Below are positions 13,501-64,000 of a stretch of 64,000 nucleotides of DNA, piece after piece. This DNA comes from Tribonema minus (Eukaryota > Sar > Xanthophyceae > Tribonematales > Tribonemataceae), in NCBI GenBank assembly GCA_017506865.1, contig JAFCMP010000092.1, forward strand, positions 62,001 to 126,000. Reading direction: 5' to 3'. The notes beneath the pieces were generated by a model. The model made no database searches, was not told the origin of the DNA, and saw only the letters and a program-made list of their open reading frames with translations. The position numbers were made by a program, and so were the translations under genes. How positions within the stretch are numbered: position 1 is the first letter of the stretch; each line of letters begins with the position of its first letter.

Positions 13501-16500
13501 ATCCGCACCAATTGTGAAAAACCATTGTGTTGGTGTTGCGATCAATACTGCACCACGCTCAAACATGATGCGCAGCACTAGGGTTAGGGTTAGGGTTAAC
13601 CCTAACCCTAAACCTAACCCTAACCGTGCCCGCTCACCGCTACCGTCACGCGGTGGTCGCGGCAAGGGCGGCTGATGTGCGGGCGCGCGACGGGAGCAGT
13701 GCTCAGCTCCGCTGCGTCGCCGCCCAACTCTGTACTGCCGTGTACTGCGACATCAGAGATCACATCACTCGTGTTGAGCACCATTCAGTGACTGGGGAGC
13801 CTAATTTTCACCGCAATCCTGACGCTATAACCAAGAGGCGGGGCTAGCGGAGCCATGCACTTGCATACTTCAAAGTGCATAAACCCCCCTCCCCTCATTC
13901 CAATAGGGACAATTTGCTCAACAAACATTGAAACTTGAACTTCGAAGTAAAATTACACAAATTAATTCATTGTACAACACCTGCCCTTCGCGGTGCGCGC
14001 TCAGCACCAGCACTCGCGCAGGTCCGGCAAGGGCAGCAGGCGCGTCGGCACGCACCAGCAGCAGCGCCAGCAGCAGCAGCGCTCCACGGGACTCCGACTC
14101 GGACTCGGCGGCGACATGGACCCGATCGCGGAGGAAAACGAGCGGTTGCGATTGGACAGCGGCGCTGCGCCGTCGCCCAATCAACTGCGCGGCAGCGCTA
14201 AGAAGGGGGAAGTTCGCTCTCTCGGTCGCCAGTCTCGGCAGAACACTGGGGGGGAGGGGGACGGGGAGGGGGGCGGGGGGGGTCCCCCCCCCTCCGTCAG
14301 CCCCGGATTGTCCAATGAGGGGGGTTTGGCGGGGGGCCTGGAGAGTGAAAACGAGGGGTCTAGCAGCACTTCCGGCAGCAGCAGCAGCAGCAGTAGCAGC
14401 AGCACCGGCAGCGGCATGAGCAGCAGCAGTAGCAGCACCACCACCAGCAGCAGCAGCAGCAGTAGCAGCAGCGGCAGCAGCACCAGCGGCAGCACCAGCG
14501 GCAGCAGCGGCGGCAGCGCCAGCATGTGCAGCAGCGGCGGCGGCGGTGGCGGCGGCGGCAGCGGCAGCGATGTTGAAGCCGTGAGTATGTTTGCACAGTA
14601 ATGTTTTATGCGCTTGCGTGTTGTACGTTGATGGTTTCATGTATTTTTGTCCGATGGCAAGACGCAAGCGTCAGTGGTGCTGGTTTAGCATTAGTTCATT
14701 ACAATACTCTGAAGTCCACGCATGCACTGAAGCATGAGGTGTTCTGCGTCTTGTTCAAACATGCGAACAATGAAGTGTAACCCTAGTCCAAATTCTAACC
14801 ATAACCCTAACCCTTGCTGTGGCGGCGTGCCACAGGGCGGCGATTTTGATGACGAGGACGGTGACGAGGAGGCATACGAGTACGAAGATGACGAAGACGA
14901 CGACGCCAGGGTAGGTATCGCATGTGTGTAGCATACATACCTATGCGCTTTGGTACCGGTAATTGTGTCACATGTCGCATGACAACAATGATAAATATCA
15001 TAGAGCTGAGGAATGGCGATGCCAGTGTTACTGCACGCCTACGGCACGCACTTCAAAGTGTGTGCTTGTGCACGTGCGGTTGGTGCGATTGGAAGAGGGA
15101 ACATGATGGGCAAAGCTCACCTGTACGCACTTCACTTGTCGATGCCTGAGCACTGTCGTCGTTGCAAACCCCTACATACCCTTAGGTATGCAGGTATGCA
15201 CTCCATCTGCGCATGCGTGCCAGGCGAATTCACTTCATGTGCCAGTGCGACCTAGCCTGTGGAATATCTGTCCTCATGGTTTAAGTTTTCACTCTTGCTG
15301 GTGTGCACATCTCGCGGCCTTGGTGCACGCTTGTGCCATAGCTCAGCTCGTTCGCTCACTGTGCTAACGCTGTTGGTAGTCTTAGTATTGTTATCATGGC
15401 AAGTGTGATTATCAATATAATTGTGATCCAACTGCTGTCTAGGATGCTATTGCTATTGACTGTACACTTCCAATACTACTTCTTGCTTCGTACGGTTTGT
15501 CTGTTGTGGATTTGTTTTGTCTTGCAGAAAATAGGGGTTGAGGGGCGGCCCAGGCGCAGGCGCTACACGGTGCGTGAGTGCAACTGTCACACACTTTAAA
15601 TGTTACGCAATGAAACCGTGATATGCTGACACTTGCCAGATTGAGAGAGTGTCACATGCTGCAACCGTCTGATATCAAAACAGTCTCACGCTCAATTCGT
15701 CACCTGCTGAAATCGTCACCTTCAAAAATGACATCATCACCGTTCTGAAACTGTCACATGCTGAGACTGCCACGGTTGCCGCATTGCCAAACCCCAATCA
15801 GCGCAATTTGCAGCAGCCACCCCTCCGCCGCAGACACATTTTAGCGCTCCCCAGGTTGTGATGATGGCACTCCAGACAGCACAGATACCTACCTACGCCG
15901 TAGCAAGGACGGGTGGACGCGCCCTCCCTCTACTTCATGTTCAGGTCTACCACTCTACTCAGTGTTCAGCTCCACCATGTGGGGCTTTGCGTGTGCATGC
16001 CTGACGATCCGTACCTTCAATTGATTGCGCTATTGGCTTGACCTTCCCCCCCCTCGCTCCCCTCCCCCCCCTTCACCTTGCGCCACTCCATACATACCTA
16101 GGACAACAAGGAAACATACCTTATGGAAGTGGATGACGAAACCGACGAGGACTGTCTGTCGGTGCTACTGGACAAGCAGCCGCCAGCGGGGATCACCTTT
16201 GTGTCCAGCTGCATCGTGCCGGGGGCTCCATTGGGCCTCGCCAATTCTCAGGTTCGGAGAAGGACTTTGTCGAGAGGGAAGCACCCCCCCCCTGGAACTG
16301 ACATGAAAATTTCAAGGGTGTAGACGGCAGTCGGTGTGGGGTTAAAATTGGGCGTTTCATGGGCTTCGCAAAGCGCAGACAAGATGACATTGTTGGTTGC
16401 AGAGGGGAGTTGGATGACACCAAAGCGTTGCCCCCCTGGTTTCACAAATGTCTAGTTGTCTCGAGCAATTCCATAAACTTTGTGCCAGGCGTGATCACGG

Positions 16501-55460: not shown

Positions 55461-55610
55461 CTTGCAATCACATCTAGTGCGCTGATTGTGAGCCTGTAGT
55501 TGCGGGCAAGGGGTCGGCGTTGGCAGTGTGGGAGTGCCGGTGACAGCTGAAGTGACGCGCGCGCGCAGGCTTTGGATGACCTTGAATTTCGTCACGGTGT
55601 CGTGTAGAAT

Positions 55611-55642
55611 GTGTAGTATAGTAGAATTCTACTATACTACAC
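55611..55642. other. 32-bp perfect palindrome
   Basis: GTGTAGTATAGTAGAA is followed at once by its exact reverse complement, centred on GAATTC. It lies about 100 bases left of the virus-like element's terminal repeat. Confidence 0.95.
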
Positions 55643-55650
55643 TGTACCGG

Positions 55651-55740
55651 ACTAACCCTAACCCTAGCCTTAGGGTTTGAGATTAGCCCTAACCCTAACC
55701 TTAGGAGGGTTTGTGAGACTAACCCTAATATTAGGGTTCA
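55651..55740. repeat. Three tandem CCCTAA...TTAGGG hairpins
   Basis: CTAACCCTAACCCTAGCCTTAGGG, then a second and third unit of the same inverted design, abut the left terminal repeat. Each can fold on itself. Confidence 0.8.
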
Positions 55741-55957
55741 TACCCCCACTAAGTCTCCCACTTATATTAATAATGGTGTTTAATCTTCTAGATATAACAT
55801 GACTATCCCAGCGTCTACGTTGAGTGCCGGCGTCATCACCGACACTTGGAGAGCATCCACTCTCGAGGTATGCACCGACACCGATGCCGGTGCGTCGGGT
55901 AACAGGACTATCCCCAGCACCGACATCCTACGTCCCCGTCGCGACGACACGACGACG
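55741..55957 (+). repeat. Left terminal inverted repeat
   Basis: It matches the reverse complement of 63665-64000 through TATATTAATAATG, TAATCTTCTAGATATAACA, GACTATCCCAGCGTCTACGT, GAGAGCATCCACTCTCGAGG and TGCACCGACACCGATGCCGG. It has one copy of a module that is doubled on the right. Confidence 0.9.
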
Positions 55958-55966
55958 CTCGCACAC

Positions 55967-56330
55967 GCGCTCGCACTCGCACATCGCACATCGCATCCGC
56001 GCACTCGCAGGTACTGGAGAAACTTTTTCTCCAGTAGCTAAGTTGTCGGCAACCGTCACCGGCGTCGGAATCCGTCATCGGCGTCGAGTTCGCAAAGTAG
56101 TTCGCAAAGATGTCGAGTTCGCAGAGTTATAGGACACCGTCATCTGCGACCGATGCGCGCCGGACTATCCCCGGTGCCGGTGCCGGTTTCGACACCGTCA
56201 TCTTTGCGGTCGGTGCGCACTCGCACTCGCACATCGCACTCGCAGATCGCACTCGCACACGCACATCGCACATCGCACATCGCACTCGCACATCGCACTC
56301 GCACATCGCACTTGACGAAAATGGCCGTTT
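55967..56330 (+). repeat. CGCACTCGCACATCGCA low-complexity array
   Basis: Short words CACTCGCACATCG repeat many times at 55967-56000 and 56205-56310, just inside the left terminal repeat. A CGTCGTCGCGT array occupies the same place on the right (63661-63712). Confidence 0.8.
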
Positions 56331-56383
56331 GAAAAGTGTTCATTTATGTGCGAGCATGTGTGCGGGACGCTGTTGCCGATGAT

Positions 56384-57151
56384 TCACTCGCTGAGTAGAC
56401 GGGCCAGGTCCGGCATGATGTGATCGCACACGCGGCACGTGCACACGATCATGACGCTGCACACGTCCTCGCCTTGCAGGTGTCGGGTAGAGAAGCGCCG
56501 GTTGGTCTCCTCCATGCGATCGGGGCTGAACAGCGTCGTGACGATGGTGGGCTCGCCGTGCACCCTGAACGTAGTCAGTGAGAGGTTGACGTCGAAGTCG
56601 GCCGGCTGCCTGCCGGTCCGCGGACTCCACGTGCAGATGTGGTAGGTCGGGCTGTCATCGAAGTGCGTGAGGATGATCTGACGCACTTCCTCCGTGCAAT
56701 GTAGGAGGACGTATGACTTCTGGATGCAGAGACCATATTGGTCTTGCTCGTAGGCGCGGATGACATCGAGGTCCAGGTGTATGTGGCGCTCGCAGAGACA
56801 CTGCAGACCGTCGGACGTCGTGCATAGATTGATTATGTTCTGTACGCTGCTGGGCCCGTTGTACACCGTCTGCGAGTCGACGGTGACGACGTGCCGGTTG
56901 ATCACCTCCAGATCCGCCAGGAGATCGGCATCGATATAGGCGCGGGGAGTGCGGTGGAGATCGTCGGCCGGAGAACCGGCGTGTGCGAACCACGCCGCGT
57001 TGTCCGCGAGAACACGGTCAAACGCCGACGTCGTCGTCGTCGCGGGTCTCGCATGTCTGCGGCGCGGACCCCGGCGGACCATGGCTGCTGCGATGTGCGG
57101 GAGAATGATAATTCGGGTATACTCCTGTCCGCGGTAATCAGAAACATCCAC
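56384..57151 (-). CDS. Unknown 255-aa viral protein with C-terminal CxCxxC
   Basis: A single open frame on the minus strand, divergent from the recombinase gene with about 150 bases between the start codons, suggesting a shared promoter region. The first 40 residues are basic (VRRGPRRRHARP). The middle has FDRVLADNAAWFAH and HIHLDLDVIRAYEQDQYGL. The end has VCTCRVCDHIMPDLARLL, a possible metal-binding or redox motif. I recognise no family. The overlapping + frame (56891-57301) is an upstream extension of the recombinase frame and less likely to be coding. An early regulatory or replication role is possible but is only a guess from position. Confidence 0.6.
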   Translation of the reverse strand: MDVSDYRGQEYTRIIILPHIAAAMVRRGPRRRHARPATTTTSAFDRVLADNAAWFAHAGSPADDLHRTPRAYIDADLLADLEVINRHVVTVDSQTVYNGPSSVQNIINLCTTSDGLQCLCERHIHLDLDVIRAYEQDQYGLCIQKSYVLLHCTEEVRQIILTHFDDSPTYHICTWSPRTGRQPADFDVNLSLTTFRVHGEPTIVTTLFSPDRMEETNRRFSTRHLQGEDVCSVMIVCTCRVCDHIMPDLARLLSE

Positions 57152-57301
57152 CTAAAATATTCGGACAACGACGGCCGGGTATCGGACGCGTGCCCGAGTG
57201 AACGCGCGTCGGGCGCCGGGCGTCGTCACGCAGTCTGCGGGGTGCGCCCGCGGCCGAATATTCGGATTTTTAATAAAGAAATTCGCATAGACCGACACCG
57301 C

Positions 57302-58978
57302 ATGCTTCACTCTTCGCCCGCAAGCATGACCGTCATCATCGACGCACTCGTCGCATTCGCCAAGGACGTGCAGTCACGCTATGAGTTGGAGGTCAAGGCC
57401 GACGGTAGCCGCGACTTCGTCATCCCCGCAGTAGAGATGCGCGCGAACGTGCACACGCAGCTGATGGCGAGGCTGGTGGAGTATCAGGAGAAGCGTATCG
57501 CGTTCGAGACGAACAATCCTCTGATTGCCCACAACTATAAGGCGAGGTCGAGTATGGGAATACTCGCCGATACCTCCCTGGCCAACGCGGTCACAGATGC
57601 GAAGAAGGAGCTCAAGGGCGAGCCGATAGCCGTCCACTTCAACTGCACGGATCTCAAGAACGCGATCAGGAAAGCAAGGGATGAACAGGACGCGGCCAAC
57701 CGCGACGTCGGTATGTTCAACGCCGGCGTGGCACGCCTCGCGGCCATCTACACGTGGGCGTCTACTACCATCCAGAACGGTGCGGCGGCCCGTGCCTACA
57801 TGGCTCTGGCGATCATCGTCGTCACCGGCTTTCGCATCGGCGAGATCACGCACTTCATCAAGACCTTCAGCGTCGGGGAACCGATCCGCATCGGGAAGGT
57901 CATGTTAGAGACGCTCAGCGTGTTCAACCTCGAGAAGAAGAGGCTCGACCATGATGGGAACGACAAGGAGGGACCCTACCAGATCCCCATCTATCCCGTC
58001 GCAGACGTGACGGCCACACTACTAGTGCAGCGCATCACGGAGCTGCGCGCCGGCTGGGAGAAGCCCGAGCTCCACACCAAGAAGGCCGCATCCGTCAACA
58101 GGGTGATCGCGAAGATGGACATCTTCGCATCCATGCGGCCGGCGTACATGGCGCACTACGCGCCGGTGAAGGCCAGGTTCCCGAGCATGAACATCACGTT
58201 TACAGCCCGCGTATGCAGGACGCTGTACTTCACGGCGGTGGTGCTTGCCAGCGGCACGGAGTTCGAGAACGTGGACGGACCCAAGATTCTCCGTCACAAG
58301 TATCGCCGCGTCGCCCTTGACCACTACAGGACGACGACCATCGTCGAGGTGCCGGAGGACGCGGAGGAGCCGGACGCCGACGCTGCGGGCGAGTTGGAGC
58401 CCGACGCCGGCGCCGCGGGTGCGGATGAGTTGGAGCCCGACGCCGGCGCCGCGGGTGCGGGCGAGGTGGAGCCCGACGCTGGTGCCGCGGCCGCGCCGGT
58501 TGCACCTCCGACACCGGCAGCGCCGGTTGCACATTTGACACCGGCCGCGCCGGTTGCACCTCCGACACCGGCCGCGCCGGTTGCACCTCCGACACCGGCC
58601 GCGCCGGTTGCCGAGGCCGCGGGTGCGGCTGGCGCCGACGACGACGATGACTTCGACGCCTTCATCGTCCACTATCGTCGCACCGCACGCGATCCCAGGC
58701 TGCGAGAGATCGCGGCCGCAGCGGCCGCAGCGCCGATCGCACCGGCCGCGGGCGCCGCGGCGGTCGCAGCGCCGGTCGTCGACGAGGACGCCGGTACTGA
58801 CGGTGCGGCTGGCGTCGACGATGGTCCCGCCGCACGCGACGCGGTCAACGGCACGCGCAAGCGCAAGGCGCCGACGAGCTCCGACCCACGCGAGAAGATA
58901 TTCCAAGCCATCATGGAGAGCGACATCTCCTGGGCCGACAAGCACGCGATCATGAGCGTCACTCTTGCTGAAGAATAA
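57302..58978 (+). CDS. Tyrosine recombinase, protelomerase/Crypton-like
   Basis: 558 residues from the ATG at 57302; an in-frame ATG at 57326 is an alternative. The catalytic set is visible: Arg178 in VVTGFRIGEITHF, Lys212/213 in the beta-hairpin FNLEKKRLDHDG...YQIPIYP, Arg306 in TARVCRTLYFTAVV (Arg303 replaces the usual His), His332 in ILRHKYRR, and Tyr342 in LDHYRTT. The H-to-Y spacing of ten is normal. The fold is that of tyrosine recombinases; the hairpin and RxxR-Y layout recall telomere resolvases and Crypton-type enzymes, which I cannot separate by eye. After residue 345 comes a long linker of EPDAGAAGA and APVAPPTP repeats, an acidic patch, a basic RKRKAP stretch and a short helix. 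The TAA lies inside AATAAA. Probably acts in integration or terminus resolution. Confidence 0.85.
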   Translation: MLHSSPASMTVIIDALVAFAKDVQSRYELEVKADGSRDFVIPAVEMRANVHTQLMARLVEYQEKRIAFETNNPLIAHNYKARSSMGILADTSLANAVTDAKKELKGEPIAVHFNCTDLKNAIRKARDEQDAANRDVGMFNAGVARLAAIYTWASTTIQNGAAARAYMALAIIVVTGFRIGEITHFIKTFSVGEPIRIGKVMLETLSVFNLEKKRLDHDGNDKEGPYQIPIYPVADVTATLLVQRITELRAGWEKPELHTKKAASVNRVIAKMDIFASMRPAYMAHYAPVKARFPSMNITFTARVCRTLYFTAVVLASGTEFENVDGPKILRHKYRRVALDHYRTTTIVEVPEDAEEPDADAAGELEPDAGAAGADELEPDAGAAGAGEVEPDAGAAAAPVAPPTPAAPVAHLTPAAPVAPPTPAAPVAPPTPAAPVAEAAGAAGADDDDDFDAFIVHYRRTARDPRLREIAAAAAAAPIAPAAGAAAVAAPVVDEDAGTDGAAGVDDGPAARDAVNGTRKRKAPTSSDPREKIFQAIMESDISWADKHAIMSVTLAEE

Positions 58979-59582
58979 ATTTTTATGACTCCAATTTGAA
59001 TCTTTTGTACATGTACCCGAGGAAGCAAAACCACTCACAAAACAAGAGTTACTGAACGGGAATATCAACTTGAAGTTGAAGTTGAACGTTCTCAGAATTC
59101 TCAGAATGGTTGGAAAAAAACGTTTCTGTGGGAAAAAACTTTCTAGCATTATCGTTTGTGCTGCAGACTGTTAACTCACACGACACGCGCAAAGTGCGAA
59201 CGACGCACAGAGCAGACTACGCGCGAGTAGCAGGTGAGCGCGCGCGCACACACCGGGAGTTAGGGCCGGCCCCCAATCGCCCCCTCTGCGGCTCCAGTTG
59301 AAGTTGCCGAACAAAATCAAAGTTGAGGTTCAGATCATCTCTTAGTCCTCAGCATCCACTTTTCAGCATCCACTTTTTTGGCTTGAAGTTGAGAGAGGGG
59401 GAGAGGTGGACCAGGTGCCCTACCTCCAGAATTGGGTCTGCCTACTGATATGTACCTAGTGCATCCACGCGGTGCCGGTTATGGCAACGGCTTCACTAGA
59501 CAAATATATCATCTGGTGATTGCCGCGTTCTCATCGCGCCATCTCCGAATCGTTGCCATTTTTTTCTCAGGTCCTGATCACC
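58979..59582. other. Non-coding gap within the virus-like element
   Basis: It contains host-like TTGAAGTTGAAGTTGAAC near 59049 and the left 130-bp repeat, and no credible gene. The upstream region of the small basic gene ends with a T-rich stretch and TCTCAG. Confidence 0.6.
59256..59397 (+). repeat. Direct repeat flanking structural genes, left copy
   Basis: It shares about 130 bases with 62288-62416: GTTGAAGTTGCCGAACAA, AAAGTTGAGGT, TCTCTTAGTCCTCAG, TTTTCAGCATCCACTT and TTTTTTGGCTTGAAGTTG. The orientation is the same. Confidence 0.9.
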
Positions 59583-59798
59583 ATGGCATCGGTTAAAAAG
59601 AAGTGGCGTCAGTACAAACCGAACAACGTCCGCGAGCGCGTGAACGAGGCTATGCTCGAAGCGCTCATCGCGGCGACCGACGTCGTGACGGCCGTCGACA
59701 GGCGGCATAAGGCGCGCCTCAGGGCGGAGTGGTGCGACGGCACGAAGCACACACATTTACAAAAGGAAATGCTGCAGAGAGTCCTGTACAGTATTTGA
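59583..59798 (+). CDS. Small basic protein, possible helix-turn-helix
   Basis: 71 residues from the ATG at 59583; the frame is open to 59520, but this start stands just before a lysine-rich N-terminus. It begins ASVKKKWRQYKPNNVRERVN, then EAMLEALIAATDVVTA, which could be two helices of a Pipsqueak-like DNA-binding domain, followed by DRRHKARLRAEW. The stop is nine bases before the next start, so the four structural-region genes form a compact + strand block. Alternatives are a small DNA-condensing protein or a scaffold. The function is inferred from composition only. Confidence 0.55.
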   Translation: MASVKKKWRQYKPNNVRERVNEAMLEALIAATDVVTAVDRRHKARLRAEWCDGTKHTHLQKEMLQRVLYSI

Positions 59799-59807
59799 AA
59801 ATCAACG

Positions 59808-60584
59808 ATGGCGGCCAATACGACCCCTTCAAGTAGTGATCTAGCCGATCTCGTGTACGTTTACTCCAGTGACTGTTATCGGCATAACACGTCGTACTAC
59901 AACGACGTGACGGTCACGTTGCCGCGGCCCATAACCACCAAGTCAGGGTATAACCTCTTCGTGAGCGTCTATTCACTCTCGATTCCCTTGACCCAGCCGT
60001 GCATCAACATGTACAATAACGTACTCACGATCACCGGCGTCACAGTCACGCTGGAGCCGGGGAACTTTAGTGCGTCGATGCTGGCAGCCGCTCTCCAACT
60101 TGCGTTCCCTGCGATCGTCATATCATGGAAACCGACGACCTCCAAGATTGTTTTTCAATCTCCGACGACGATCACTCTCACGGGTAGCATGTGCGTCGTC
60201 CTGAACGTCGACGAGGGTACGTCAGGCCTGACAATCTCGAGTACAAATAATGTATCGTTGGAGGGAAACATCTCATTTAATGTCGTCTCCGACCTTATCG
60301 GCAGATCAATTGATACATCGAGCGTGGGCAACCGGGGTCTCCTCGCCAACATCCAAGCACGTGTACCGTACGGAGCCGTTCTCCACTATGCCGACGAAGG
60401 TTCCCGACAAGGGTCATTGGTTGAGAATCGTGCCCTGTATAAAATTCGTCTACAGTTGTGTGATCTTAGTGGGCGCCCTTTACTCTCTAATCTACCTTGG
60501 GCCATGGTGCTCCGCGTGAGGCAAGAATTCACGGGAACGCGGCATCTTAGAATACCGAATTCTCAACCGACGCCATCGAAATAA
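59808..60584 (+). CDS. Penton/minor capsid candidate, 258 aa
   Basis: The N-terminus, VYVYSSDCYRHNTSYYNDV then TVTLPRPI and GYNLFVSVYSLSIPLT, has the 'SSxD...Y-x-V-x-LP-x-P' start seen in many minor capsid or penton-like proteins of algal and protist dsDNA viruses. The rest is rich in beta-type sequence and ends with VLRVRQEFTGTRHLR. It has no Cys-rich or enzymatic motif. Two shorter minus-strand proteins of this element share the same N-terminal design. The TAA overlaps an AATAAA. By position, just upstream of the pVI-like and major capsid genes, a vertex protein is the best guess. Confidence 0.6.
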   Translation: MAANTTPSSSDLADLVYVYSSDCYRHNTSYYNDVTVTLPRPITTKSGYNLFVSVYSLSIPLTQPCINMYNNVLTITGVTVTLEPGNFSASMLAAALQLAFPAIVISWKPTTSKIVFQSPTTITLTGSMCVVLNVDEGTSGLTISSTNNVSLEGNISFNVVSDLIGRSIDTSSVGNRGLLANIQARVPYGAVLHYADEGSRQGSLVENRALYKIRLQLCDLSGRPLLSNLPWAMVLRVRQEFTGTRHLRIPNSQPTPSK

Positions 60585-60604
60585 AAATGTAGAGAGTTTG
60601 TAAA
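60585..60604 (+). promoter_or_regulatory. Shared AAATGT..TAGAG leader motif, first copy
   Basis: AAATGTAGAGAGTTTGTAAA lies right before the pVI-like start codon. A close relative is at 61024-61044 before the capsid gene. It may be a late promoter or untranslated-region signal of the element. Confidence 0.4.
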
Positions 60605-60607
60605 ATT

Positions 60608-61006
60608 ATGGGGTTCGGCTCATGGCTCAAGAGAAGTTTTCATAAAGTTGGTCACTTTCTGGGCAAAGCCGCAAAAACGGTAATGCATGGTGTGCGGTGG
60701 CTTGGGCAGAAGGCTCTTCCGGTTGCGCATGCGGTTACCGGGGTGATGAGGGATGCCCTTAGCAATCCTATATTGCAGGCCGGCGCGGCCGGCGTTCTCG
60801 GTCCAGAGGTGATACCGGCGATGTTGGCTGGTAGTCAGGCCGCGGGATTTGCACATCAGATAACAGGAACCGCGCCACACCTGGTCCGGCAAGTCGCCGG
60901 GCCTCTACTGGCCGGCAACGTGCACGGGGCGGTCCAGGGTGCGACCAACGCGCGCACGGATCTTGCCACGTTGCAGCAGCAGTATCACGCTCTGAGAAGA
61001 GCATGA
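60608..61006 (+). CDS. pVI/pX-like amphipathic minor virion protein, 132 aa
   Basis: It begins MGFGSWLKRSFHKVGHFLGK, a strongly amphipathic basic helix, then AAKTVMHGVRWLGQKALPVA, and an Ala/Gly-rich middle. Proteins of this build (short, Gly/Ala-rich, basic amphipathic start) serve in adenoviruses and Polinton-type elements as membrane-lytic or core proteins. The start codon is 24 bases after the previous stop, preceded by AAATGTAGAGAGTTTGTAAA, and a similar word stands before the next gene. The similarity is of style, not a proven homology. Lies between the penton and major capsid candidates. Confidence 0.55.
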   Translation: MGFGSWLKRSFHKVGHFLGKAAKTVMHGVRWLGQKALPVAHAVTGVMRDALSNPILQAGAAGVLGPEVIPAMLAGSQAAGFAHQITGTAPHLVRQVAGPLLAGNVHGAVQGATNARTDLATLQQQYHALRRA

Positions 61007-61023
61007 CGCGGCTTGACGAGAAA

Positions 61024-61044
61024 AAATGTTGTAGAGTAGGCAAA
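61024..61044 (+). promoter_or_regulatory. Shared AAATGT..TAGAG leader motif, second copy
   Basis: AAATGTTGTAGAGTAGGCAA matches the word at 60585 with a small insertion, eight bases before the capsid ATG. Confidence 0.4.
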
Positions 61045-61051
61045 GGTTCAG

Positions 61052-62281
61052 ATGGCGCTGCCGTCAACCCTGAGCTACCCACAGCTTAAATCAGTAGGCG
61101 CTGAAGCAGTCGCTTGTCGCTATGCTAATCTGCCGGTCAGTGGGACAACGTTCACTGCTGACCCCTCTCAAACCTTGCTAAGTTTTTCTGTGGCATGTAC
61201 TTCAACGGGAGGGACTACACCGACATGGACGGTTCAAGCGCATCATCTCATCCAGAGTCTTACGCTCTCCAGTTCAGCGGGTAGTAGCGTGATAGAGTCA
61301 CTGTCGGAGTACGGTGCCGTGCACAGTCTTTTACGGGATCTGTGCAGTAAGCAAGATCTCGTAATTACTCGCGATACGATTACAAATAATGCTGACAGTT
61401 CTACCCTGCGTGAAAGTTTGTTCGGGGCGGCGTCGGGCGTGACCGTCCAGTTCTCTATACCACTCCTTGGTATCATTTCCGCCTTGTCGGGCAGAGATCG
61501 GTATTTAGCCTTCCATAAGCTCGCTGCTAACCCGCGTCTCGACATCGAGTGGGCGCAAAATAACAAAGCGATTTCGTGTACAGGCGCACCGGCGAGCATT
61601 GCGGTCGTGATTTCGTCGGTCTCCCTGGACACTACGTACATCACTTTAAGCGGGGAGGTAGCGAGGCAGATCGATGGAATGGTAAATTCTGAGTACGTGT
61701 GGTCGAGCAGCATTTATAAGCATTATCGCAGTGTTATGGCTGCGAACCAGCTCTCGCTGTCGGCAATGGTGCCCAGCCGCGTCGAGTCAGCGAAGTCCCT
61801 CATGGTTATGCAGCGCGTATCAGCAAACGAGTTCGATTTTAACAAATACTCGGTGCAAGATAGGGTTCGCAACTATTTGCAGCGTTTCCAAACGCGCAGT
61901 GGCTCCAGGTTTATCGACTCTGTCCCTGTAGGATGTACAAATAACGCACTTGTAGCATATTTGAGCGCGACCAGGCTCTACTCTAATCCATCGTCGGAGA
62001 ACAGCACTGGGTTGATCAACCTTGCGTCCTGGACGCGAGACGCTCCGCAAACCGTCGCGGCAGCGGCAGCTGAAGGTAGTTTTGTAGCCAGTTGCGATTT
62101 GGAGAGTTTTAGCAACTCACAGAAACTGATCAGTGGAGTTGCTACACAGACTAACTCTCTGATTATGGACCTAACGTTTACTGGAAGCCCGCTCGCAGTC
62201 AACGCGGATTGTGTACTCGAGTGTGACGCCGTTTTCTCGATCAACGCCGGCCAATCAGGAGCCATTGCAGTCGCATTCTAA
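61052..62281 (+). CDS. Major capsid protein candidate (double jelly-roll type), 409 aa
   Basis: A single frame with alternating beta-type sequence throughout. Features like those of Polinton-like and related capsids are VWSSSIYKHYRSVM, VPSRVESAKSLMVMQR and YLQRFQTRSGSRFIDSVP around residues 218-295, and a C-terminus of short hydrophobic strands. At 409 residues it is shorter than most Polinton-like capsids but long enough for two jelly rolls. It is the largest gene in the structural block and follows the pVI-like gene by 45 bases, with AAATGTTGTAGAGTAGGCAAA just ahead of it. The call rests on motif feel, size and neighbours; a fold prediction would settle it. Confidence 0.65.
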   Translation: MALPSTLSYPQLKSVGAEAVACRYANLPVSGTTFTADPSQTLLSFSVACTSTGGTTPTWTVQAHHLIQSLTLSSSAGSSVIESLSEYGAVHSLLRDLCSKQDLVITRDTITNNADSSTLRESLFGAASGVTVQFSIPLLGIISALSGRDRYLAFHKLAANPRLDIEWAQNNKAISCTGAPASIAVVISSVSLDTTYITLSGEVARQIDGMVNSEYVWSSSIYKHYRSVMAANQLSLSAMVPSRVESAKSLMVMQRVSANEFDFNKYSVQDRVRNYLQRFQTRSGSRFIDSVPVGCTNNALVAYLSATRLYSNPSSENSTGLINLASWTRDAPQTVAAAAAEGSFVASCDLESFSNSQKLISGVATQTNSLIMDLTFTGSPLAVNADCVLECDAVFSINAGQSGAIAVAF

Positions 62282-62287
62282 GTTTTT

Positions 62288-62416
62288 GGAGGTAGGGCCC
62301 CTACCCCCCTCGGCCGCTCCGTTTGAAGTTGCCGAACAATACAAAGTTGAGGTACAAATCTTTCTCTTAGTCCTCAGTATCCACTTTTCAGCATCCACTT
62401 TTTTGGCTTGAAGTTG
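62288..62416 (+). repeat. Direct repeat flanking structural genes, right copy
   Basis: Partner of 59256-59397. It begins seven bases after the major capsid stop codon and ends just before a CCCTAA run. Confidence 0.9.
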
Positions 62417-62444
62417 GGAGAAGTTGCTAAGGAGGATTGGGCGC

Positions 62445-62467
62445 CTTAACCCTAACCCTAACCCTAC
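62445..62467 (+). repeat. CCCTAA array inside the virus-like element
   Basis: CTTAACCCTAACCCTAACCC lies between the right 130-bp direct repeat and the stop codon of the 133-aa gene. This is the host-type telomere repeat within the element. Confidence 0.9.
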
Positions 62468-62869
62468 CTACATGGTGCGCTTGCAGTCGCTTTCTAGGAT
62501 CTCGATGAATCTGAACCGGATGGTCTTGGCTAACCCCGACGTCACCGCGGTGCCGATGCTCGGCTGGAAGAAGCGTACTGATATCCAAGGGGGTGGGGCG
62601 GAGAAGTAGAGGACTCCTCGAGGGGTGTCCAGCGTTCCAACGTAATAGATGCACGCCGTCGTCCAACCGTCGGGTGTCGTGGAGTAACACCTCGCCAGCG
62701 TGTCAGACTGCACTTGCAGAGCGAACACCGTAGAAGATGCAGCGGCGTATAATTGTACAGAGACCTCACACCGATACGGTGCGCGTTTCATGTCTGGTAC
62801 CAGGCATCGGAACGCCAACGCCGTACCCGATTGTGCATCGACGCTGTTAAGGTTAACAATATACTCCAT
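62468..62869 (-). CDS. Small virion-type protein, 133 aa, paralogue of 63277-62953
   Basis: It starts MEYIVNLNSVDAQSGTALAF and has PDGWTTACIYYVG, GVLYFSAPPPWISVRF and FRFIEILESD. It aligns along its length with the neighbour at 63277-62953 (shared DGW, GV-YF-A-P, SVR), so the two arose by duplication. The N-terminus follows the same pattern as the penton candidate. One predicted beta-sandwich is plausible. It is convergent with the major capsid gene, whose stop is about 190 bases away. Role unknown, probably structural. Confidence 0.6.
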   Translation of the reverse strand: MEYIVNLNSVDAQSGTALAFRCLVPDMKRAPYRCEVSVQLYAAASSTVFALQVQSDTLARCYSTTPDGWTTACIYYVGTLDTPRGVLYFSAPPPWISVRFFQPSIGTAVTSGLAKTIRFRFIEILESDCKRTM

Positions 62870-62952
62870 TTATACATAGCTCAGATTTTTTCAAAGCGTA
62901 ACAAGGCGATTGTATGACCGATGGTCGTCGCGAGGAGCGCCGACGACGGTAT

Positions 62953-63277
62953 TTACGCGCGCACGCTCAGCAACGCCGGGGCGTCGGCGAAGTAGCAAAC
63001 ACCATCACCGCTCTGATTTCCATTGAGTGTGACAACACTAATTCCAGCCGTCGAATCCTGTAGATGACAACGTACCCGTACTGAGGTTGTGTGTCATCTC
63101 TGAACACTTGAATTGAAGCATAAATGCAGAGGCCGATCCCAGTGACGCAATCAAGTATCGCACCGTGCACCAATAATTCGCGCTCGGCATCAGCGGCATT
63201 TGTACTGTGAAGGCATACGTTGTATCGGTGGAATACAGACAGTCACGAGAGGAGACAGCGACGACGTAGGAGTCCAT
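62953..63277 (-). CDS. Frameshifted paralogue of the 133-aa protein
   Basis: The first frame runs 79 residues (MDSYVVAVSSRDCLYSTDTT ... FDGWN) to TAG at 63040-63038. Skipping one base after the TGG at 63046-63044 opens a second frame, ISVVTLNGNQSGDGVCYFAD ... LLSVRA, ending at TAA 63955-type position 62955-62953. The second part aligns with GVLYFSAPPPWISVRF of the neighbour, so the shift is real relative to the ancestor. Either the gene is newly broken, the assembly has an indel, or a +1 slip is used. No slippery heptamer is obvious. A further overlapping frame (63173-62967) is a shadow. Confidence 0.6.
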
Positions 63278-63298
63278 CGTTTGACAATGACTATATTA

Positions 63299-63622
63299 TT
63301 ATCCCGATGTCATGTGTCGCGATGCTCTGAAACACGCCCGGCAGGCGAGCGGCAGGATGACGTATCCATGATCGTCCTTCAGTGCCAGACACGTCATCTG
63401 CCACGTATTGCACGTGCAGCAGTGATACCTCCACCCGTCGCGGAGATGTCGTGACGCCGGTTTCTCTGGCGGCTCCGCGTCACCACGTAGACGGTGCAGC
63501 CGGCGAAGGTTGTCGTATTCCACTTTGATGTGCGGCGATTCGCCGAAGAGATCCATGGATGCAGTGCGCATCATGGCTCGATAGTTGTGAGCAAAGACAG
63601 GCATCCATATGGTTTCTTCCAA
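63299..63622 (-). CDS. Small zinc-ribbon-like protein, 107 aa
   Basis: The frame starts METTIWM-like at 63622 (MEETIWMPVF) and has RYHCCTCNTWQMTCLAL and LACRACFRA: two CxxC pairs about 23 residues apart, as in zinc ribbons. The middle (PHIKVEYDNLRRLHRLRG) is basic. It is the outermost gene on the right, next to the CGTCGTCGCGT array and the terminal repeat. Transcription-factor or accessory roles are possible; none can be shown. Three bases separate nothing else: the next gene starts 22 bases downstream at 63277. Confidence 0.55.
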   Translation of the reverse strand: MEETIWMPVFAHNYRAMMRTASMDLFGESPHIKVEYDNLRRLHRLRGDAEPPEKPASRHLRDGWRYHCCTCNTWQMTCLALKDDHGYVILPLACRACFRASRHMTSG

Positions 63623-63664
63623 GAAAGATTCTGATGTGGATACAATATGTACATATCGTCACGT

Positions 63665-64000
63665 CGTCGCGTCGTCGCGTCATCGCGTCGTCGCGTCGTC
63701 GCGTCGTCGGGGACGTAGGATGCCGGCACTGGGATAGTCCTGTTACCCGACGCGCCGGCATCGGTGTCGGTGCATACCTCGAGAGTGGACGCTCTCCAAT
63801 TGTCGGTGATGACGCCCGATACTCTACGTAGACGCTGGGATAGTCCTGTTAACCCGACGACATCGGTGCATACCTCGAGAGTGGATGCTCTCTAAGCGTC
63901 GGTGACGACGCCGACACTGGACGTAGACGCTGGGATAGTCCTGTTATATCTAGAAGATTAAACGTCATTATTAATATAAGAAGGGGACTTAGTGGGGGTA
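63665..64000 (-). repeat. Right terminal inverted repeat, with internal duplication
   Basis: Inverted partner of 55741-55957, but about 115 bases longer because the GGACTATCCCAGCGTCTACG ... CGGGTAACA module is present twice. The window ends inside or exactly at the repeat. Confidence 0.9.

Follow-up and report, generated by a model that had tools for sequence, protein, structure and literature searches.

An integrated capsid-coding element of Tribonema minus with palindromic termini: a probable deletion derivative of a small polinton-like virus

Does the compact capsid-coding element found at the end of a 64,000-nt stretch of Tribonema minus DNA represent a new class of very small, helper-dependent elements, or is it a deletion form of a larger virus? 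Both possibilities were raised in a preliminary description of this stretch (hereafter the window; positions 62001-126000 of contig JAFCMP010000092.1, here C92, in an assembly of 158 Mb and 554 contigs), in which inverted ends were seen to enclose a tyrosine recombinase, capsid-type genes and small accessory genes. Taken together, our results favour the second answer. The copy in the window is best explained, with a probability that we put at about 0.85 for the explanation as a whole, as an integrated and decaying copy, shortened by an internal deletion, of a small polinton-like virus with a double-jelly-roll capsid protein, the family of which would insert by means of an rve integrase, end in hairpin telomeres and encode a resolvase-like recombinase.

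Once the flanking DNA was included, the element proved to be 8,484 bp long (window 55612 to 64095), its right end lying 95 bp past the window edge. The inverted ends and all nine open reading frames (ORFs) reported previously are real, while the limits given for the element (55741-64000, 8.3 kb) were 129 bp short on the left and 95 bp short on the right. The inverted arms of 138 nt (55741-55878 and 63863-64000, 91% complementary), accompanied by further inverted stretches of 86 nt (97%), 45 nt (76%) and 36 nt (89%), lie inside terminal palindromes, with 251 of 276 gap-free positions aligning. A DNA search of the genome with the left arm (55741-55920) matched the two ends of this element and no other place; since, in addition, shuffled sequences contained no 30-bp TG..CA near-palindromes (see below), the arms are not a product of chance. 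The outermost 30 bp on the left (55612..55641) form a perfect TG...CA palindrome, an identical copy of which closes the element outside the window (64066-64095, that is C92:126066-126095), and the element is framed by a target-site duplication, GAATG (55607..55611; right copy at 64096-64100, outside the window). The left terminal inverted repeat occupies 55612..55957, palindrome and telomere-like CCCTAA runs included, and the right one occupies 63689..64000 and runs on to 64095 outside the window. Telomere-like CCCTAA/CCCTAG runs are situated slightly inside the palindromes (55652-55730, mirrored by a copy at the right end), similar runs occur near the ends of the related elements on contigs C154 and C531, and a head-to-head TTAGGG/CCCTAA telomere-like palindrome is also present within the contig at window 13584-13611.

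The link to viruses, suspected previously from a 409-aa protein (61052..62281, forward strand), was borne out by structure prediction. The AlphaFold model of this protein, obtained with 16 sequences at medium confidence (pLDDT 63.9, pTM 0.64; four other models reached 37-44), matched in the PDB the PBCV-1 capsid chain (E 1.2e-12), the major capsid protein (MCP) of mavirus (E 2.6e-9), PRD1 P3 (E 3.7e-9) and also a grouper iridovirus capsid, and in BFVD it matched the capsids of giant viruses and virophages. By its predicted fold the protein is a double-jelly-roll MCP. Of the checks suggested in the preliminary description, fold prediction yielded a capsid fold for the MCP, and profile searches gave weak matches only: in Pfam and PHROGs searches with the nine window proteins the best PHROG E value was 0.0073 and no Pfam match exceeded the cut-off, the MCP itself having no Pfam family and a PHROG match at E 0.14 only. 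No match to the MCP was found in phages, plasmids or IMG/VR (147 stretches met the pattern in one of these searches, 0 being confirmed), and profiles or sequences of the MCP, the 258-aa protein and the recombinase returned nothing meaningful from the PDB sequences.

Relatives of the MCP were detected at 25 places of the T. minus genome (our own grouping of 45 matches), showing 31-92% identity besides the protein itself, several of them broken; of 18 proteins matched, four were named T. minus, and the other 14 come from other records, the longest of whose contigs measures 19.7 kb. Identical match scores were noted for C44/C75 and for C37/C469, two contigs each, which may be redundant contigs or haplotypes. 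Twenty of the 25 places were fetched with 10 kb each (C75, C37, C469, C157 and C92:283681 being left out), and ORF clustering revealed that the MCP is accompanied in all 20 by the 258-aa protein (59808..60584, forward strand), a penton or minor-capsid candidate judging by its position, and in 14 by the 132-aa protein of the same module (60608..61006, forward strand). In comparison with C154, the closest relative (92% MCP identity), the dN/dS values of the capsid module are 0.065-0.175 (five genes), and the module was, by this measure, under purifying selection since the split of the two copies. The dS values of neighbouring capsid-module genes range from 0.33 to 1.35 in the same comparison, a spread that suggests exchange of modules. 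Compared with that of C154, the window MCP is shorter by about 18 residues at its N-terminus, two nearly invariant positions being among those lost.

Larger relatives, the search for which in the same assembly had been named as decisive for the new class, do exist. In C511 two identical 30-bp palindromes stand 20,175 bp apart, and the half of this element that was read carries an rve integrase, an ATPase and the capsid module. In C154 there are 19,166 bp between the palindromes, the arms are 98% identical, and the recombinase gene is in two parts about 7.45 kb apart, about 1.5 kb of this gap, which may hold replication genes of the element, having been read. C531 contains a recombinase, a replicase-like gene, an rve integrase (E 2.2e-8), an ATPase and capsid genes together with one palindrome. 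An integrase ORF cluster is present in 9 of the 20 loci, PF00665 (rve) being recognized in all three ORFs tested (in C511 just below the curated cut-off); no rve gene was found in the window copy or in the read part of C154. In 18 of the 20 loci the 258-aa gene is directly preceded by an ATPase-like ORF, which is broken in some of these loci (e.g., C44 and C290). It is missing in C76 and in the window copy, the latter thus being devoid of the A32-like packaging ATPase. The ATPase-like proteins are 265-271 aa long and possess a Walker-A-like motif (nine sequences inspected), their profile support being weak (Pox_A32 E 0.0094, below the cut-off; PHROG terminase 0.0068).

The site of the loss is visible in the alignment of the window copy with C154, which extends up to position 4788 of L009 and resumes from 4786, while 2.33 kb lie between in C154. 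The letters GTA are common to both sides of the joint, marking a deletion junction with 3-nt microhomology at window 59786..59788, and the packaging ATPase, a 125-aa gene and most of the replicase fragment are gone. The 71-aa ORF (59583..59798, forward strand) represents the 5' stub of this replicase-like gene, matching the start of the 321-aa ORF of C154 at 91% over 46 aa. The stretch lost from the window copy is colinear between C531 and C154 (81% over 4,204 columns), and in C531 the 321-aa protein of C154 carries on (88.5% over 96 aa) into an ORF with a minimum length of 1,030 aa. Motifs GTGEGKT and DEHR allow the latter to be read as an SF2 helicase, and the insertion splitting the gene in C531 can be read as a copia-type one; the best helicase profile for this ORF had E 0.067, and the only outcome of tblastn against phages was a helicase match over 50 residues (E 0.3). 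The N-terminal part looks PolA/TVpol-like by its motifs, a polymerase reading that no profile supports: profile searches with the replicase-like ORF found no polymerase profile. A genome search for DNA_pol_B_2 (PF03175) remained without a match at E≤0.01, with a single candidate scored, and as the control genomes gave only a sub-cut-off match in E. coli, the sensitivity of this search for such viruses is unproven.

Since the relatives keep the ATPase, the rve integrase and the helicase-like protein, the window copy is to be regarded as a deletion derivative, as one of the two original suggestions had it. The other one, a new class, does not stand, for elsewhere in this genome related elements with palindromes of the same kind carry the ATPase (C154, C531 and C511), rve (C531 and C511) and the helicase-bearing replicase-like gene (C531, and in truncated form C154). 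Helper dependence of the window copy, which is left with neither ATPase nor full replicase, is plausible. C154 was considered as an '11-kb minimal virus' and rejected, as it looks like a deletion product itself: homology of its replicase fragment is lost after about 285 aa, and the integrase block of C531 is missing between this fragment and the ATPase.

The termini proved to be a property of the family. The 20 loci (200 kb) were scanned for 30-bp palindromes of the form TG..CA, 3 mismatched pairs at most being allowed and low-complexity palindromes being filtered out of the real scans. Ten sites emerged in 9 loci, all of them perfect or with a single mismatch, and 20 mononucleotide shuffles of the same loci gave 0. 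A second scan for any 30-bp palindrome with not more than 1 mismatch, low complexity again excluded, returned the same ten sites. Together with genome pattern searches, the scans yielded 13 distinct palindromes, distributed over 19 sites. Watson-Crick pairing holds for 193 of the 195 pairs of these palindromes, although 13 of the 15 pair positions vary between elements. The ends of C511 and C146 are palindromic, and in all three elements for which two ends were found (C92, C154 and C511) both ends are identical. Perfect palindromic sites at the ends of elements are a feature of telomere-resolvase replicons. The 5-bp flanks agree at 5/5 positions in C92, 5/5 around a lone palindrome of C70 and 4/5 in C154, so that a perfect duplication is present at two of the three sites with both outer flanks read, and the solo palindrome of C70 can be read as an excision scar. 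Further lone palindromes occur at C123:26728, C157:1058050, C348:1705 and C126:31010. Two 3-mismatch pattern matches, C20 and C57:49481, lack palindromic symmetry and were discounted as chance matches (the search control gave 20 per strand).

The second component of the end system would be the 558-aa tyrosine-recombinase-superfamily protein with a low-complexity C-terminal tail (57302..58978, forward strand). Its relatives were found in C531, C154, C212 and C532, and a four-member alignment keeps R178, K212, H332 and Y342, the residues of an integration enzyme thus being conserved in the window copy, which has RxxR where C531 and C154 have HxxR. PF16684, the catalytic domain of telomere resolvases in Pfam, was the only family reported for the recombinases of C531 (E 0.011) and C532 (P0020, E 6.8e-4). 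The recombinase of C522, convergent with the rve integrase of that contig, matched PF16684 in its C-terminal part (E 1.4e-4), followed by Phage_integrase (0.12), and in the genome search it scored 28.0 bits, over the cut-off of 27. That search gave 51 PF16684 matches, the best at E 2.3e-27 and twelve at E 1.3e-17 or better, of which only those in C522 (at a distance of 3.2 kb) and C171 (24.5 kb) are no farther than 40 kb from any of the 25 MCP places. The matches, among them those in C179, C90, C445, C59, C524 and C112, are perhaps giant-virus insertions. Searches of the window recombinase against 5.8 billion proteins at E≤0.001 retrieved only the protein itself and one T. minus protein among 8000 scored candidates per search.

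Considering these data, we tentatively propose, at somewhat less than even odds, that the small capsid-coding viruses of T. minus include a lineage with hairpin telomeres: their linear genomes would have 30-bp palindromic ends, the symmetry of which is kept by copying through the hairpin, and would use a telomere resolvase of their own or of a resident giant virus, insert by rve with a 5-bp duplication and be excised to a solo palindrome. An rve integrase, either the ancestral own one or one acting in trans, would have inserted the element, giving rise to the TG..CA ends and the 5-bp duplication. The terminal palindromes would be opened or copied hairpin telomeres, on which the telomere-resolvase-like tyrosine recombinase may act, resolving the replicated ends or excising the element, and excision would leave a solo palindrome as a scar. 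We know of no description of such an end system for polinton-like viruses. Several observations weigh against this proposal. The PF16684 matches of C531 and C532 are below the curated cut-off; the window recombinase has no Pfam match and none to PF16684 at E≤10, and that of C212 does not match PF16684 either; hhalign gave a probability of 2.4% for the recombinase family against N15 protelomerase and 3.4% for the C522 protein against the window recombinase family; and PDB sequence searches with the recombinase gave nothing meaningful. The assignment of the window-family recombinase as telomere-resolvase-like is therefore a weak one. As to the ends, in 11 of the 20 fetched loci the 10 kb read contain no TG..CA palindrome, even with 3 mismatched pairs allowed, no second palindrome of C531 was found, the flanks of C154 agree at four of five bases only, and the lone palindromes of C123, C157:1058050, C348 and C126 could be element ends rather than scars.

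The same palindromes can be explained with no hairpins, as ordinary att- or dif-like crossover sites of the tyrosine recombinase: inverted ends need a symmetric site if it is to serve as a direct repeat, and symmetry would then have been selected for excision. This explanation, which we consider a serious if doubtful one, fits the palindrome centres, which are the same at the two ends of a given element but differ between some elements, as well as the solo palindrome with an intact duplication in C70 and the position of the recombinase adjoining one end. However, symmetry extends over all 30 bp in spite of the variation of 13 of the 15 pair positions, which exceeds the need of a recognition site, and the ends of C511 and C146 are palindromic although no recombinase of the family was found in these elements (the distal half of C511 is unread, and a more divergent enzyme could be missed). 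It is also conceivable, but in our opinion unlikely, that the palindromes are only the terminal TG..CA recognition sequence of the rve integrase and that the recombinase is a passenger with another use. A retroviral-type integrase can indeed leave TG..CA ends and a 5-bp duplication, and the relatives carry rve genes; but such integrases do not require 30-bp perfect palindromes, the ends are the same in the window copy and in C154, where no rve gene was seen (in the latter, in the part read), and the solo palindrome is left unexplained.

As for the window copy alone, a genuinely minimal helper-dependent element, maintained as a satellite-type virus with only recombinase and capsid genes, seems very improbable to us. 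In its favour, both termini are present, neither the recombinase ORF nor the capsid module is interrupted, and the dN/dS of the capsid genes since the split from C154 is low. Against this, the low dN/dS may date from before the deletion, the arms of the window copy exist at one place of the genome only, the ATPase and the replicase are gone at a clean joint inside the replicase stub, and the MCP and the 79-aa protein are shortened. An assembly artefact or chimera can hardly be the explanation: the duplicate matches of C44/C75 and C37/C469 indicate that the assembly may hold redundant contigs, but the element is located inside a 296-kb contig, has two intact ends and a 5-bp duplication, and its relatives have the same architecture. 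We therefore retain the interpretation of the window copy as a deleted polinton-like virus.

Among known systems, polinton-like viruses and Maverick-Polintons share with the Tribonema elements the double-jelly-roll MCP, the A32-like packaging ATPase (in the relatives), an rve integrase or tyrosine recombinase, inverted termini and integration in a protist genome. The Tribonema elements differ in their exact, covarying 30-bp terminal palindromes, in the lack of a DNA_pol_B_2 match in the genome, in the pairing of a recombinase with a free rve integrase in C531 and in the perfect 5-bp duplication around a copy that bears a recombinase. According to the sections available of PMC12220804, recombinase and rve are paired in 12 of 8300 elements, always with a retrotransposon-fused rve; in the same portion of the text, few recombinase-bearing elements among cryptophyte polinton-like viruses have target duplications, and rve co-occurs with recombinase only via retrotransposons. 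Mid-GC EMALE virophages of Cafeteria carry both an rve integrase and a tyrosine recombinase, their target duplications being predominantly 3-5 bp in the passages available (PMC8547959), and differ in that the word stem 'palindrom' is absent from the text of that paper. Some of the oomycete elements with a recombinase or rve have 5-7 bp duplications, as stated in part of PMC7805220, and the occurrence of a recombinase together with a duplication is thus not without parallel. Xanthoviruses and phaeovirus-like recombinases are reported in Tribonema in the available part of PMC13236599, which brings phaeovirus insertions of Ectocarpus close to our case; these, however, are giant viruses of about 350-400 kb with an internal palindrome, inserted at CC dinucleotides, and are contrasted there with viruses having inverted termini and target duplications. 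Insertions in a further study are generally 15 to 30 kb, and its main text does not mention Tribonema (PMC10120064). Systems of the phage N15 type are similar in the idea of a recombinase acting with a perfect palindrome (the N15 record annotates a 56-bp inverted repeat), and differ in that the window recombinase family has no significant profile match to the N15 protelomerase. A literature search, with most subscription papers and all bioRxiv preprints outside its scope, returned no paper with both 'Tribonema' and 'polinton' and none with both 'telomere resolvase' and 'polinton'.

The remaining genes and repeats of the window copy are as follows. To the left of the recombinase a 255-aa protein of unassigned function is encoded on the reverse strand (56384..57151); its homologue adjoins the recombinase in C531 (dN/dS 0.37). 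To the right of the MCP, and also on the reverse strand, lie the genes of a 133-aa protein (62468..62869), of a 79-aa protein (63038..63277), which it resembles, both matching the same relatives, and which is truncated in comparison with its 131-aa homologue in C154, and of a 107-aa protein (63299..63622), to which tblastn found no counterpart in any of the 19 other loci fetched. The capsid module is flanked on both sides by a conserved intergenic repeat, about 120-220 bp long (59280..59396 and 62305..62421, forward strand), as is the case in C154 and C531; the copies of this repeat are direct in the window and C531 and inverted in C154, and might serve as a promoter or replication signal. Many of the related elements encode a long protein, at least 775 aa in L017 (L017:2-2326, reverse strand; L014:1171-2298, reverse strand; also L018, L019 and L028), unassigned to a family and with weak matches only, and a 531-aa companion (L014:2323-3915).

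The window copy itself is thus an ordinary deletion relic, while its wider family is not: the actual finding is the combination of covarying palindromic termini with telomere-resolvase-like recombinases in this family, hairpin telomeres being as yet unproven. The palindrome centres offer a direct and cheap test of how the ends are replicated, namely whether reads turn back there, and a recognizable 30-bp excision scar makes it possible to find past insertions. If the proposal is true, the family would tie polinton-like viruses both to replicons with hairpin ends and to the telomere resolvases that giant viruses of brown algae, relatives of the xanthophyte host, are reported to have.

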